A program made the position numbers and the translations under genes. The notes under the pieces are model-generated. The model searched no databases. It was not told where the DNA came from and saw nothing but the letters and a program-made list of their open reading frames with translations. A DNA stretch of 36,703 nucleotides from Bacteroidota bacterium (GTDB lineage Bacteria; Bacteroidota; Bacteroidia; Chitinophagales; Chitinophagaceae): positions 1 to 36,703 of the forward strand of contig JABDCE010000023.1 in the NCBI GenBank assembly GCA_013288285.1, in the 5' to 3' direction. Shown piece after piece: positions 3,347-13,177 of the stretch; position 1 is the stretch's first letter; each line of letters starts with the position of its first letter.

Positions 3347-4111
3347 TTAGTTCACATACTTACCATCCGGGGAGTACATAACGGGGAGCAACTTATGGGT
3401 CTTCTCGAAATACTCATACTCATTCCTCAGATCGGCCCAGAACTGCTGGCGGGGCACATCGTTCGGGTATTCCTTCATCAGGTAGGTGATACCGTTCTTA
3501 TTGAGGCGGGTGGGGTAGATATGTACCGGTATATTCTCCTCGCCATTAACGCGCGCACTGAGACAAAGGGTATATATCTCCTCTATACCTTCATTGGTCA
3601 TGGGCAGGCAGCCGATGGTGACGCAGCCGCCATGAATATATATATCCCCGCCCAGGTTTGGCTTGCCGGAGGCCTGGTCGGCGAAGTTGGGATAACTGAC
3701 CTGTAGTGAAAGATAGTATTCACTTTTGGGGTTGAAGTCTTCTATAAAGTAGAAGCCTTCCGGCACCTGCCTGTCGCCCTGGATACGCTTGGGGCCCAGG
3801 GAGCCGGAGATGGCGCATATATGATAGGTCTTTATGAGCTTGTACTCTGTGGCGTCGCTGTTGCGGGCCCATAACTCCAGTTCATTCTGCGACTTAAATG
3901 CCCGGAGGTAAATGTCCTTACAGGGATAGGCTACATTCTTGCGGCTGAACAAGCGGCTGAGCGAATCGTCATACTTCTTCCAGGCATCGGCTACACGACT
4001 GGATGACATCTGGGCGTTTTTGAAGGCCTGATCGGTGGACTGGGCAGATACCTGGTAGGGGCAAAGACCTATGACTACCATTATACCACCGAGCAGTTGC
4101 TTTATCATCAT
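3347..4111 (-). CDS. L,D-transpeptidase family protein (YkuD/YafK-like)
   Basis: A 254-residue secreted protein with a signal peptide (about 1-24, ending QVSAQ). The catalytic motif IHGGCVTIGCLPMTNEGI lies at 159-176: the conserved His is H160 and the nucleophile is expected to be C168 in IGC. This spacing resembles the YafK/DpaA branch rather than classical YkuD. Enzymes of this fold form or cleave L,D cross-links or cleave lipoprotein-peptidoglycan links in the periplasm; which of these applies cannot be decided here. The region before the motif (YHICAISGSLGPKRIQGDRQVPEG) is the usual substrate-cleft lead-in. A TATATTTG box on the minus strand (4135-4128) sits 17 bp before the ATG and may be its -7 promoter element. 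Confidence 0.88.
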   Translation of the reverse strand: MMIKQLLGGIMVVIGLCPYQVSAQSTDQAFKNAQMSSSRVADAWKKYDDSLSRLFSRKNVAYPCKDIYLRAFKSQNELELWARNSDATEYKLIKTYHICAISGSLGPKRIQGDRQVPEGFYFIEDFNPKSEYYLSLQVSYPNFADQASGKPNLGGDIYIHGGCVTIGCLPMTNEGIEEIYTLCLSARVNGEENIPVHIYPTRLNKNGITYLMKEYPNDVPRQQFWADLRNEYEYFEKTHKLLPVMYSPDGKYVN

Positions 4112-4127
4112 TATATTTTGGACCTAA

Positions 4128-4135
4128 CAAATATA
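4128..4135 (-). promoter_or_regulatory. Possible -7 promoter element for the L,D-transpeptidase gene
   Basis: On the minus strand this reads TATATTTG, a full match to the Bacteroidota -7 consensus TAnnTTTG, 17 bp before the ATG at 4111. No TTG is found at the expected 19-21 bp upstream, so the call rests on one half of the promoter. Confidence 0.4.
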
Positions 4136-4310
4136 ATGGAAGTACTGCAAAGTGTATCTGAAAAAAGCAAAGCCCCGGCGCCGCGCCGAAGCCTTGCTCC
4201 TATTTGAAACCAGAAACTCTTAATCCTACACTACATATGACGTAGGATGGAGAGAAAATGTTAGTAAACATCCAATATATATTCTAAGAATGGTGTTAAC
4301 CTAACAAGAT

Positions 4311-4413
4311 TGTACACAATTCTTTTTCAGCGTTCATTTCGTGATTATTGCTCACATTGGTATTGATAATCAATGGCAGTGTGTGCAATTTTGGTAATCT
4401 GACCACTGGAAAA
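4311..4413. repeat. Palindromic repeat element, copy A
   Basis: This ~103 bp segment aligns with 4604-4704 throughout, with small indels. Its core, 4347-4389, is a 43-bp palindrome centred on base 4368; 17 of 21 position pairs are Watson-Crick and two are G-T wobbles. The central 13 bases ATTGATAATCAAT are perfectly symmetric. The outer flanks (TGTACAC at 4311; the complement of AGTGTACAC just past the end) are loosely inverted copies of each other, so the whole unit behaves like a small inverted-repeat element. Confidence 0.75.
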
Positions 4414-4482
4414 GTGCACAAAAAGTGTACACTTTCTTGACAGCTTATACAGTATCCTGATATGCGGCCCCATCATCACCCT

Positions 4483-4519
4483 GACTTATCAAAAGCCGCT
4501 GACGCTCTTTTGATAAGTC
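4483..4519. repeat. Perfect 13-bp inverted repeat
   Basis: GACTTATCAAAAG at 4483-4495 and its exact complement CTTTTGATAAGTC at 4507-4519 are separated by 11 bases. It lies between the two palindromic element copies. No T-run follows on either side, so it does not look like a rho-independent terminator; a protein site or element end is possible. Confidence 0.7.
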
Positions 4520-4603
4520 GTCCCTCTTCGAAAATGAAGCGGGAAGTTAAAAGCGACCTATTTCCGAAGGTAATAGTGACGGACTGTTGCCCTCGCATAA
4601 GTT

Positions 4604-4704
4604 TGTACACTTTCTTTTTCAGTGTCCAATTTTTGGTTATTGCTCAGATAGGTATTGATTATCAATGTCTATGTGTGCAATTTTAGACTTGGGCTACTGG
4701 AAAA
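4604..4704. repeat. Palindromic repeat element, copy B
   Basis: Second copy of the element at 4311-4413. The 43-bp palindromic core is 4639-4681, centred on 4660, with inner sequence ATTGATTATCAAT. Compared with copy A the arms differ but remain paired: the T-A pair 4358/4378 is A-T at 4650/4670, and the T-G wobble 4357/4379 is T-A at 4649/4671. That pattern suggests the symmetry itself has been maintained. Confidence 0.75.
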
Positions 4705-4745
4705 CTGAACCCACCTACGCAAAAAGCCGCTTCGGTCGGCAGGCA

Positions 4746-4789
4746 AAAAGTGTACAAAAAGTGGACAAAAACTGAACAAAATTTGTACA
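4746..4789 (-). repeat. Four tandem 11-bp iterons (TGTNCANTTTT)
   Basis: Read on the minus strand, four consecutive 11-mers occur with no spacer: TGTACAAATTT (4789-4779), TGTTCAGTTTT (4778-4768), TGTCCACTTTT (4767-4757) and TGTACACTTTT (4756-4746). Two further tandem copies, TGTACACTTTT and TGTGCACTTTT, occur at 4431-4410 on the same strand. Plus-strand copies occur at 4382-4392, 4623-4633 and 4674-4684, with near copies at 4311 and 4604. An 11-bp period places each copy on the same face of the helix, as expected for cooperative protein binding. Confidence 0.75.
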
Positions 4790-4832
4790 TGCCTAAAAGC
4801 TGTTAATCCGGGTTTTGGGTTCGCCGATGGAA

Positions 4833-4906
4833 TGTAAAAATGACAGATTTAGGGCTATGCTAATATGCTGCAAAAACCGAGCCAGATTTTGTGAAAATGA
4901 CAGATG
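4833..4906 (+). repeat. 16-bp direct repeat pair
   Basis: TGTAAAAATGACAGAT at 4833-4848 recurs with one change as TGTGAAAATGACAGAT at 4890-4905, 57 bp apart. The second copy overlaps the first available ATG (4904) of the NHL reading frame, which argues that this ATG lies in non-coding repeat rather than being the true start. Confidence 0.65.
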
Positions 4907-5053
4907 GGGATACATATTTTTCGTGTGGATGCAAATGGGGCTGTGACGAGACAGGAACTCTGCAAAATAGACTTGACATTGTTTAAAGTAATTAAAAACA
5001 TTTACAGATGTAAAAACCGGCTTTTATATTCGATTAATCATTATTTTTATGCA

Positions 5054-6376
5054 GTGAAGCACCTCCTGTATATACCATTCCTTTTATCATTTCTTTTTCT
5101 GCCGCTATATAACTCAGCCCAGATCATCACAACCGTTGTAGGCACTGGCACACCCGGAGCTACCGGAGATGGCGGCTCTTGTAAATTGGCTGAATTATAT
5201 GAACCTAATAGCCTCGTCTTCGACAAAGCCGGTAACATGTACATTACAGATGCAGGCAATAATAAAATACGAAAGGTCAATACTACAGGCATTATTACTA
5301 CCATCGCAGGTACAGGGCTCCAGAATTATTCAGGTGATGGCGGACCGGCTACTGCGGCAGAGCTAAATAAGCCGACCAGTATAGCTATAGATACCGATGG
5401 TAATTTATACACCGGCACAATTGGAGATTACCGTATCCGGAAGATCAGTAAGGAGGGTATCATCACTACAATAGCAGGTACTGGAAGTTTAGGCTATGGT
5501 AGTGACAATATCCCTGCTACCGCTTGTGATTTATATGGCCCATACATGGGCGCGGTAGACAAAATGGGTAATATAATTTTTACCGATAGGGGCAATTACC
5601 GGGTATGTAAAATAAATACGGCCGGTATCATTACCACCATTTGCGGGAATGGCACAGATATCCACAGTGGTGATAATGGCCCTGCTACGGCAGCTACCTT
5701 AAAAGACCCAGCTTTTACATCAATAAGCTCTTTGGGAGATATTTTTATCCCTGAAGATTATGGTTATTGTATCCGGAAGATCGATGCTGCGGGTATCATC
5801 ACGACTTTTGCAGGCACAGGCATCATAGGTAATGATGGTGATGGAGGGGCCGCTACCGCTGCCCGGTTTACGTTGCCTAATGGGGTGGCTTTTGATGATA
5901 CTGGCAATGTATATATTGCCGATTATCAGGCTGGCGTAGTGCGCAAAGTAAGTCCTACGGGTATTATTTCTACTTTGGCTGGAAATGGGGTAGTAGGTTA
6001 TAGTGGCGATGGCGGTCCGGCTATTAAAGCGCAGATCATGCCTAATGCAGTAGCTGTAGATAATAATGGTTATTTATATATTGCTGATTCTGATAATGAC
6101 CGAATTCGGAGGGTTGTGCCAAGTACGGTGGGGATAAACGAAGTAGAAAAGCTATCGACAAATGTATCCATTTTTCCTAACCCGGTTACTTCTGAGTTGT
6201 TTGTTACTGCTTCATTTCGTTTGGGGCGTGTTGTTATTGTTAACTCTATTGGGCAGGCTGTATATACCTATGAGTATTTTGACACGAAAGCAACAGTTGA
6301 TATATCAGCGCTGCCGGTAGGTGCTTATTTAGTATGCGTTAACGGTACTACGTTCCGGAAATTCATAAAAGAATAA
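5054..6376 (+). CDS. NHL-repeat beta-propeller protein with T9SS type A sorting domain
   Basis: Six consecutive repeats of about 57 residues, each of the form IITTIAGTG...GDGGPAT...AVDxxGNLYIADxxNxRIRKV, are expected to fold as one six-bladed NHL propeller. The C-terminus, from VSIFPNPVTSELFV to VGAYLVCVNGTTFRKFI, is the T9SS type A sorting domain, so the protein should cross the outer membrane by the type IX system and be released or surface-anchored. Start choice: the frame opens at an ATG at 4904, but the GTG at 5054 gives MKHLLYIPFLLSFLFLPLYNSAQ-type signal peptide, whereas the upstream 50 residues are unlike any secretion signal and overlap a repeat. It is a paralogue of the genes at 26598 and 30116. 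The ligand of the propeller is unknown. No clear promoter was found. Confidence 0.82.
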   Translation: MKHLLYIPFLLSFLFLPLYNSAQIITTVVGTGTPGATGDGGSCKLAELYEPNSLVFDKAGNMYITDAGNNKIRKVNTTGIITTIAGTGLQNYSGDGGPATAAELNKPTSIAIDTDGNLYTGTIGDYRIRKISKEGIITTIAGTGSLGYGSDNIPATACDLYGPYMGAVDKMGNIIFTDRGNYRVCKINTAGIITTICGNGTDIHSGDNGPATAATLKDPAFTSISSLGDIFIPEDYGYCIRKIDAAGIITTFAGTGIIGNDGDGGAATAARFTLPNGVAFDDTGNVYIADYQAGVVRKVSPTGIISTLAGNGVVGYSGDGGPAIKAQIMPNAVAVDNNGYLYIADSDNDRIRRVVPSTVGINEVEKLSTNVSIFPNPVTSELFVTASFRLGRVVIVNSIGQAVYTYEYFDTKATVDISALPVGAYLVCVNGTTFRKFIKE

Positions 6377-12174: not shown

Positions 12175-12193
12175 CCTGATAGTATTGTGCCTG

Positions 12194-13177
12194 CTATACT
12201 TTTGACAAAGATTTCTTGAGGAAGTCTATCACTTTTACTTCGGTGGCGTCTAACTGACGGAGATCGGCGAGGAAGACAGAGACCCAGTCGGTAAGGTGAA
12301 TGAGATAAAAGGCTTCTTCGAGATAACTGCTGCCCTCGGAATAAATTTCGATGATGGTAGAAGTATGTTTTTTGAAGACCTTTTTATTGATCTCCATTCG
12401 CGTTTGTATGCGTTCGTAATCATTTTTATTCCTGAGCAATATCACGGCCTTGTCTGCGGCATCATCGCGCCAGCCTACAAGCTCATTATGATTCATTTCA
12501 GGTATAGCGCCGTGCCAGGCGAGCATCTTGCTGTTCTCGTTGAGCTGCTGGCGGAAGCGTACGGCAACGCCTTCGAAGTGATCGGAAGAATAAATGATCG
12601 GCAATTTACCGAAGACCTTTTTAGCAATGACCATCGCTTTCTTCTGTGTGTCGGCCTCTGCGGCTTTCATTTCTTTGATCGTCTTTTTGATGTCGCGCTC
12701 AAAGCCATTACCTATCAAGCTGAAATGAGACAGCACATATAACAGCTGCACGAGGGAGTAACCCAGGCATGCACGTGGCGGCATGCCGGCAGGCACTAAT
12801 ATGCAGTCGATCTTTTTCTGTGTGGCTATCTCTGCTACCGTGCCGCCAGATGTAACGCAGACAACAGTAGCACGCTTCTTTATGGCTTCTTTCATGGCCA
12901 TGACAGTCTCCTCGGTATTGCCGGAATAAGAGCAAACAATGACGAGCGATTTACGGCTAACGAAAGCAGGAAGTGAGTATCCCTTATTTACAATAAATGG
13001 TGTCTTCAGTTTATCAGAAACGAAATTCTGTACGATGGAGCCGCCTATGCCGCTGCCGCCGAGACCGGTAACGATAACGTTATTAAATTCTTTTCCGGTA
13101 GCAATGAAACGGTAATTTTTTCCTATTATTAATGCTTCTTGTAATTGTAGTGGGAAGTCCAGTACTAACTTTTTCAT
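12194..13177 (-). CDS. Bifunctional phosphoglucose/phosphomannose isomerase
   Basis: A 327-residue SIS-domain sugar isomerase. VIVTGLGGSGIGGS (34-47) is the first sugar-phosphate binding loop, VCSYSGNTEETVMAM is the second SIS loop, and WHGAIPEMNHNELVGW contains the catalytic Glu/His region of the Pgi/PMI family. The enzyme interconverts glucose-6-P, fructose-6-P and mannose-6-P in the cytosol, linking glycolysis with mannose and GDP-sugar supply. Length matches the archaeal/Bacteroidota two-function type (about 320-340) rather than classical Pgi (about 450-550). It is divergent from yraN, with only 17 bp between the two start codons. Confidence 0.9.
   Translation of the reverse strand: MKKLVLDFPLQLQEALIIGKNYRFIATGKEFNNVIVTGLGGSGIGGSIVQNFVSDKLKTPFIVNKGYSLPAFVSRKSLVIVCSYSGNTEETVMAMKEAIKKRATVVCVTSGGTVAEIATQKKIDCILVPAGMPPRACLGYSLVQLLYVLSHFSLIGNGFERDIKKTIKEMKAAEADTQKKAMVIAKKVFGKLPIIYSSDHFEGVAVRFRQQLNENSKMLAWHGAIPEMNHNELVGWRDDAADKAVILLRNKNDYERIQTRMEINKKVFKKHTSTIIEIYSEGSSYLEEAFYLIHLTDWVSVFLADLRQLDATEVKVIDFLKKSLSKV

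Follow-up and report, generated by a model that had tools for sequence, protein, structure and literature searches.

Palindromic intergenic repeats of a Chitinophagaceae genus and their association with a multi-copy gene for a terminase-like helix-turn-helix protein

The window, i.e., the whole stretch of 36,703 nucleotides that was analysed (contig JABDCE010000023.1 of a Bacteroidota bacterium of the family Chitinophagaceae), carries two 43-bp palindromes centred on positions 4368 and 4660. Each has 17 Watson-Crick and 2 G-T pairs out of 21, as the preliminary description had stated, and the letters it gave at 4357/4358/4378/4379 and 4649/4650/4670/4671 are indeed present. The palindromes are flanked by divergent ORFs at 3347-4111 (minus strand) and 4904-6376 (plus strand), and their assignment to non-coding DNA was borne out, with no ORF of at least 80 aa in the intergenic region 4112-4903. 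The best odd-centre palindromes in eight first-order shuffles of the window had 14-15 pairs out of 21. Three further places in the window (11769, 26561, and 33090) have odd-centre palindromes that likewise reach 17 Watson-Crick pairs out of 21. The two copies sit in a 73-nt direct repeat with 84% identity and a spacing of 292 bp, and each core is flanked by TTGTACAC on the left and by GTGnACA units on the right. The region comprises the following features:

4310..4432, plus strand: repeat unit 1, with the block order TTGTACAC left block, TTTTTCAGCGTTCA, 43-bp core, right block GTGCACAAAAAGTGTACAC (from the sequence, direct repeats D1 and D2, and matches elsewhere in the genome; limits set by eye)
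4347..4389, unstranded: core palindrome 1, TTGCTCAC-n6-ATTGATAATCAAT-n6-GTGTGCAA (matches the strict core pattern on both strands)
4433..4602, unstranded: inter-unit spacer occupied by another type of repeat, whose 13-bp inverted repeat is at 4483-4495 / 4507-4519 (from the sequence)
4603..4709, plus strand: repeat unit 2, block order as in unit 1 (from the sequence and direct repeats; limits set by eye)
4639..4681, unstranded: core palindrome 2, TTGCTCAG-n6-ATTGATTATCAAT-n6-GTGTGCAA (no match to the strict core pattern)
4746..4789, plus strand: direct array of four 11-bp units, AAAAGTGTACA, AAAAGTGGACA, AAAACTGAACA, and AAAATTTGTACA-like (direct repeat D2)

The array at 4746..4789 probably belongs to repeat unit 2, although about 35 bp of other sequence intervenes. 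The inverted repeat of the spacer (GACTTATCAAAAG / CTTTTGATAAGTC) is part of a second repeat family, and similar stretches were observed on contigs C52, C9, and C25 of this genome.

Further copies, for which the preliminary description had proposed a search, were found, and the palindromes belong to a dispersed intergenic repeat family. The genome of the window, searched as 2.57 Mb in 128 contigs with 58% completeness, contained 52 matches to window positions 4300-4800, of which several lay at the end of a contig. With the strict core pattern, TTGCNCANNNTNNNNTTGATWATCAA, 18 matches were obtained in this genome, which correspond to 17 places because palindrome 1 matches on both strands. Across the genus, the strict core was present in 21 of 35 genomes, with 0 to 49 matches per genome (49 in G028, 19 in G016, 14 in G031, 13 in G013, and 12 in G027), and this pattern undercounts the family, since G020 has no strict match yet shows BLAST matches to the G028 unit. 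The reversed pattern, used as a control, had no matches in all 35 genus genomes. Among 395 other genomes of the order sampled, three contained the strict core, with one match each, and a BLAST search with the window stretch matched 14 of 60 genomes, all of the same genus. Core sites avoid long reading frames (6 of 71 sites lie in such frames, compared to 160 of 245 positions drawn at random from these loci), and copies frequently stand in direct tandem with a spacing of about 180-290 bp. The solitary unit of G028 is about 105 bp long with inverted ends of about 10 bp, AATTGCACAC...GTGTGCAATT, as judged by eye; its alignment included 19 of the 21 copies found. Comparison of one G028 site with other genomes at the nucleotide level returned only the coding flank and the repeats themselves.

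The preliminary description had interpreted two differences between the window copies as compensated base pairing. We aligned the 15 matches to the full palindrome pattern that were present in the stretches fetched from this genome, more degenerate copies being excluded. The claim did not hold across these copies: the pair that changes from T-A to A-T (alignment columns 35/55) is formed in 3 of 15, and the pair that changes from T-G to T-A (columns 34/56) in 8 of 15. The 20-pair helix had a covariation score of 0.089, below the shuffle mean of 0.106, and 460 of 500 shuffles scored at least as high. Four pairs (6 cells) were changed on both sides, compared to 4.6 pairs (7.3 cells) in shuffles, and nine pairs of the helix were invariant. 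Pairing was possible in 79% of cells, close to the shuffle mean of 80%, and in 26%-46% when the partner was slid by 1-3 columns; the 79% arises because the palindromic blocks are conserved as sequence. RNAalifold predicted 12 pairs in the 15 copies, none with a change on both sides. The conserved parts are the sequence blocks TTGCnCA, ATTGATWATCAAT, and TGnGCAA, and the spacers between them vary.

A family of RNA or single-stranded DNA hairpins, either a structured RNA or an attC-like site, could account for the inverted-repeat form of the units in genomes G000 and G028, and the fixed place 3' of an ORF (see below) recalls integron cassettes. However, the lack of covariation in the 15 copies gives no support for a selected RNA hairpin, and a search against Rfam returned only two tRNAs in the window at the gathering threshold. 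Moreover, the TTGCTCAC blocks of the relatives L053, L054, L058, and L065 are direct rather than inverted repeats and so cannot pair with each other. We regard the hairpin explanation as very improbable. Conserved blocks without covariation are the pattern expected for protein sites on double-stranded DNA. Of the possibilities offered in the preliminary description, a dimer-binding site and a small mobile element pointed in the right direction, while the RNA hairpin is not supported.

The location of the cores relative to genes also points to a protein. Three cores of this genome were found about 60-90 nt after the stop codon of a repeated gene encoding a helix-turn-helix protein; the gene copies are on C7, C64, and C89, and contig ends cut two of them. 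To evaluate this association, a weight matrix was trained on those cores of loci L029-L068 that had been identified through their similarity to the window, with a threshold of 8.2, just over the top score of 8.1 in 300 shuffled 450-bp tiles. It was applied to 46 distinct genes, excluding five genes of the training loci (C9, C3, C7, C64, and C89), phage and outgroup loci, and genes without a stop codon or with short flanks. A core was found within 450 bp 3' of 19 of the 46 genes, in all 19 cases on the minus strand relative to the gene, and within 450 bp 5' of none; control tiles gave 0 of 150. The other 27 genes had no core above the threshold within 450 bp. These misses include genes with degenerate cores (L082 and L099) and the G010 subfamily, in which the array lies inside the end of the ORF, and many of the 27 show nothing recognisable. 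The density of TTGnnCA blocks was also higher 3' than 5' of the genes, 3.7 compared to 1.8 per 750 bp (n = 44). Since the palindromic repeat often stands right behind multi-copy genes for phage-like DNA-binding proteins, it is probably a binding site for these proteins and not a folded RNA. The DnaA-box-like sequence TGTGGATAA stands between the core and the array in L049, L052, L056, and L067.

The window itself carries only solitary copies of the repeat, without the helix-turn-helix gene. Four genes of the window subfamily were found in this genome, and the genes on C7, C64, and C89 form a different subfamily. Two of them, on C9 and C3, have the array type of the window about 0.5-0.75 kb 3' of the stop codon, the C2 gene has no array in the 0.6 kb up to the contig end, and the C48 gene has no 3' flank. 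Window positions 4410-4455 match C3:3231-3273 with 89% identity, and positions 4746-4778 match C9:26803-26835, about 0.7 kb 3' of the helix-turn-helix gene, with 91%. Comparison of the 5' leaders of the G000 genes with window positions 3501-6000 gave only 11-16 nt matches with E-values of at least 0.14. In G028, a palindromic stretch around GTATAC or similar (L150:1660-1810) resembles the 5' leaders of the genes of that genome, and matches to it precede such genes in other genomes; at L150 the stretch occurs without the gene, and a solitary core lies about 270 bp away.

The complete product of the gene family represented on C7, C64, and C89 is a helix-turn-helix protein of 239 aa. It matched Pfam Terminase_5 above the cut-off, DUF1804 with an E-value of 1e-4, below the cut-off, and PHROG 4151 "DNA binding protein" with 4.7e-13 over residues 2-142. 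Terminase_5 matched 26 of 26 members and DUF1804 18 of 26 (E ≤ 0.01); in the two members for which scores are shown, Terminase_5 was above its curated cut-off and DUF1804 below its own. The one member shown for NCBIfam matched no model above the cut-off. The family thus resembles small terminase subunits (TerS) in sequence, the similarity to those of Mu-like phages extending over approximately the first 140 residues. In Mu, the small terminase subunit described by Terminase_5 and DUF1804 is gp27. A structural model of the first 159 residues was all-helical (pLDDT 82.7, pTM 0.47). It places the helix-turn-helix at residues 20-40 and gives no indication of a catalytic fold. A structure search of PDB found no matches at E ≤ 0.001, and the single significant match in a viral fold library was a protein named "DDE transposase family protein" (E-value 1.6e-5). 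The proteins end with Ala-Ala in 29 of 54 distinct cases (e.g., L030, L052, L101, and L115), compared to 4 of 297 background ORFs, and this ending, which resembles the ssrA degradation tag, is kept although the C-terminal halves vary strongly.

Of the 35 genus genomes, 34 contained members of the family (1 to 15 matches per genome), whereas none of 25 genomes from 24 other genera did so at E ≤ 0.001. The family is not confined to the genus, since a profile search of the order found it in 18 of 395 other genomes (E ≤ 1e-10); 17 of these had one or two matches, and G188 had seven. The 37 loci on named contigs were from MAGs labelled Bacteroidetes, Bacteroidia, Chitinophagaceae, Taibaiella, or Flavipsychrobacter, with one weak match in Lentisphaerae. 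Inspection by eye showed that an apparent large terminase frame follows the gene in the six loci that were examined from other genera besides G188 (L235-L240), and that in G188 two of seven copies precede an apparent large terminase and the other five stand alone. The relative on the viral contig L137 also precedes an apparent large terminase gene. In phage SuMu, a DUF1804 gene adjoins a terminase (PMC3447690). By contrast, reading of the ORFs by eye in 13 genus loci with the gene revealed no large terminase neighbour. With apparent large terminase genes 3' of the relatives elsewhere, the genus family appears to be a branch of the Mu-type small terminase subunits that stands alone, distinguished by up to 15 matches per genome, a C-terminal extension, and the linked 3' array.

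Signs of mobility of the gene were seen in G010, where it forms units of about 1 kb that are scattered over the genome. For one subfamily, the eight copies that were fetched had 83%-93% DNA identity, and the ORFs neighbouring the copies differ, as judged by eye. Pairwise matches start 149-225 bp before the ATG in 24 of 28 cases and extend to 416-761 bp in the other four, and their 3' ends lie 620-915 nt after the ATG. The last block common to all copies, GTGCGCAAAA (TTGCGCAAAA in one), is located near the ORF end, and the copies diverge beyond it. The 149-nt leader had 23 matches in G010. A copy beside rfbC was found only in G010, in one of the 30 rfbC loci fetched out of 31 strong matches (two of the 30 have a 3' flank shorter than 350 bp); the loci were compared through their neighbouring gene, which is no proof that the places are orthologous. 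Inspection of the ends of the G010 units by eye revealed neither terminal inverted repeats nor target duplications. On contig C19 of G010, inverted core pairs and outer inverted matches (L154:1751-2136 and 12180-12562) flank about 10 kb. A composite transposon was considered for this arrangement and rejected, since the 10-kb interior contains ORFs that resemble, by eye, housekeeping genes (malate dehydrogenase, SAM synthetase) and none that resembles a transposase.

Repeats that are short, palindromic, intergenic, multi-copy, and clustered could also form a family like REP/BIME or MITE elements, with an ordinary transposase of the RAYT/Y1 or IS type as the mover and the helix-turn-helix gene as a passenger. 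REP sequences of RAYT transposases are likewise short palindromic intergenic repeats that occur in clusters, also beside their partner gene (PMC3733652). The inverted ends of the G028 unit fit this explanation, as do the name of the viral fold match and the finding that 33 of the 35 genus genomes carry Y1 transposase genes. However, no core was found near any of 23 distinct Y1 loci (24 of 105 Y1 matches), of which 17 were from the genome of the window and five other core-bearing genomes and 6 were best matches picked by the search, one of them also from those genomes. Thus, the REP-type element considered in the preliminary description failed the search for a RAYT partner. In addition, G010 has many helix-turn-helix units and no Y1 matches, nothing transposase-like was noticed by eye among the ORFs read in 23 core loci, and the core is fixed 3' of one gene family. 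The partner here is a terminase-like helix-turn-helix protein instead of a Y1 tyrosine transposase, with the site found only 3' of its gene. As judged from these Y1 loci and core loci, movement by an ordinary transposase appears unlikely.

It could also be proposed that the system is purely regulatory, the protein being a multi-copy transcription factor or nucleoid protein, the repeats its operators, and the genes multiplied by ordinary duplication. The dyad form of the sites, their intergenic location, the position of the window copies between divergent ORFs, and the absence of a catalytic fold would agree with such a role. On the other hand, the site lies 3' and not 5' of its own gene, copies of one gene occur in unrelated surroundings with similar borders, and the number of strict cores differs between genus genomes over the range given above. 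Regulation alone therefore seems a rather improbable explanation.

The protein and the array appear to vary together. One TTGnnCA type dominated in the 3' region of 26 of 54 distinct genes, and the remaining 28 had no single dominant type. Genes with P+H helices (PRRTLH type, 11 genes) had TTGCTCA in 6 of 6 labelled cases. Other helices with H at that place were accompanied by TTGCACA in eight and TTGCGCA in two cases, and helices with S by TTGCGCA in six and TTGCTCA in one; there were three others. The mutual information between array type and protein type in the 26 labelled genes was 1.13 bits, compared to 0.32 in shuffled data, and none of 5,000 shuffles reached this value. Since protein columns outside the helix score equally well and the array types track protein clades, the joint change of helix and array is suggestive and is no proof.

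Taken together, a core with TTGnnCA blocks stands 3' of many genes in a fixed orientation, the genes are multi-copy and dispersed, and solitary 3' sites are scattered between genes. We consider it probable (about 60%) that the window palindromes derive from the cis-acting 3' end of mobile one-gene units of this genus, of which they would be solitary and partly decayed copies, and are candidate binding sites of the encoded protein. Binding and the mode of spread we infer as follows. The gene product, a helix-turn-helix protein apparently related by descent to the small terminase subunit of Mu-like phages, would recognise double-stranded DNA at the TTGnnCA blocks and at the central TTGATWATCAA dyad, with cooperative binding where the blocks are in phase at about 11 bp. 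Small terminase subunits line up on packaging sites, and by analogy the protein would bind the TTG(n)CAA dyads and align on the phased blocks. The 3' site would mark the gene for recognition by its own product, and a putative strand-transfer activity could have left the solitary copies behind or could have spread them as derivatives that are not autonomous.

Such one-gene units would differ from known systems in several respects. Like PICIs, the phage satellites that carry TerS, they keep a TerS-like gene together with a putative recognition site; here, however, a single gene of about 1 kb occurs in many copies per genome, and no integrase or capsid gene was noticed alongside. In gene cassettes of integrons, a palindromic site of fixed orientation comes after the ORF. 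The units described here share this order but are dispersed singly, have another site sequence, and show no covariation in the 15 copies aligned. Bacterial interspersed palindromes are commonly linked to RAYT or IS transposases, whereas this repeat family is tied to a phage-packaging-like protein without a recognisable catalytic domain. A search of the literature, covering titles and the beginnings of abstracts, found no published description of this repeat or gene family.

If the protein binds the sites, the genus would offer a naturally diversified set of protein-site pairs, and two proposals could be tested: spread of the gene without a known transposase, and promotion of DNA transfer by chromosomal packaging-type sites. 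A broader scenario, which we think doubtful, is that a phage small terminase subunit has turned into a minimal selfish single-gene element with a 3' recognition array, the array type changing with the helix, and has multiplied within one genus. A Mu-like phage could then use the solitary sites in trans, as packaging-like sites or as start sites of transfer, to move host DNA.

A comparable arrangement may occur outside the genus. In G188, which belongs to another genus of the same family, loci L241, L242, and L244 contain stand-alone multi-copy relatives of the gene, two of which are 87% identical over 929 bp. Repeated GGAAGTTT-like words were noticed by eye 3' of the gene at these loci, so that the G188 copies possibly have the same arrangement of gene and site with a different site.
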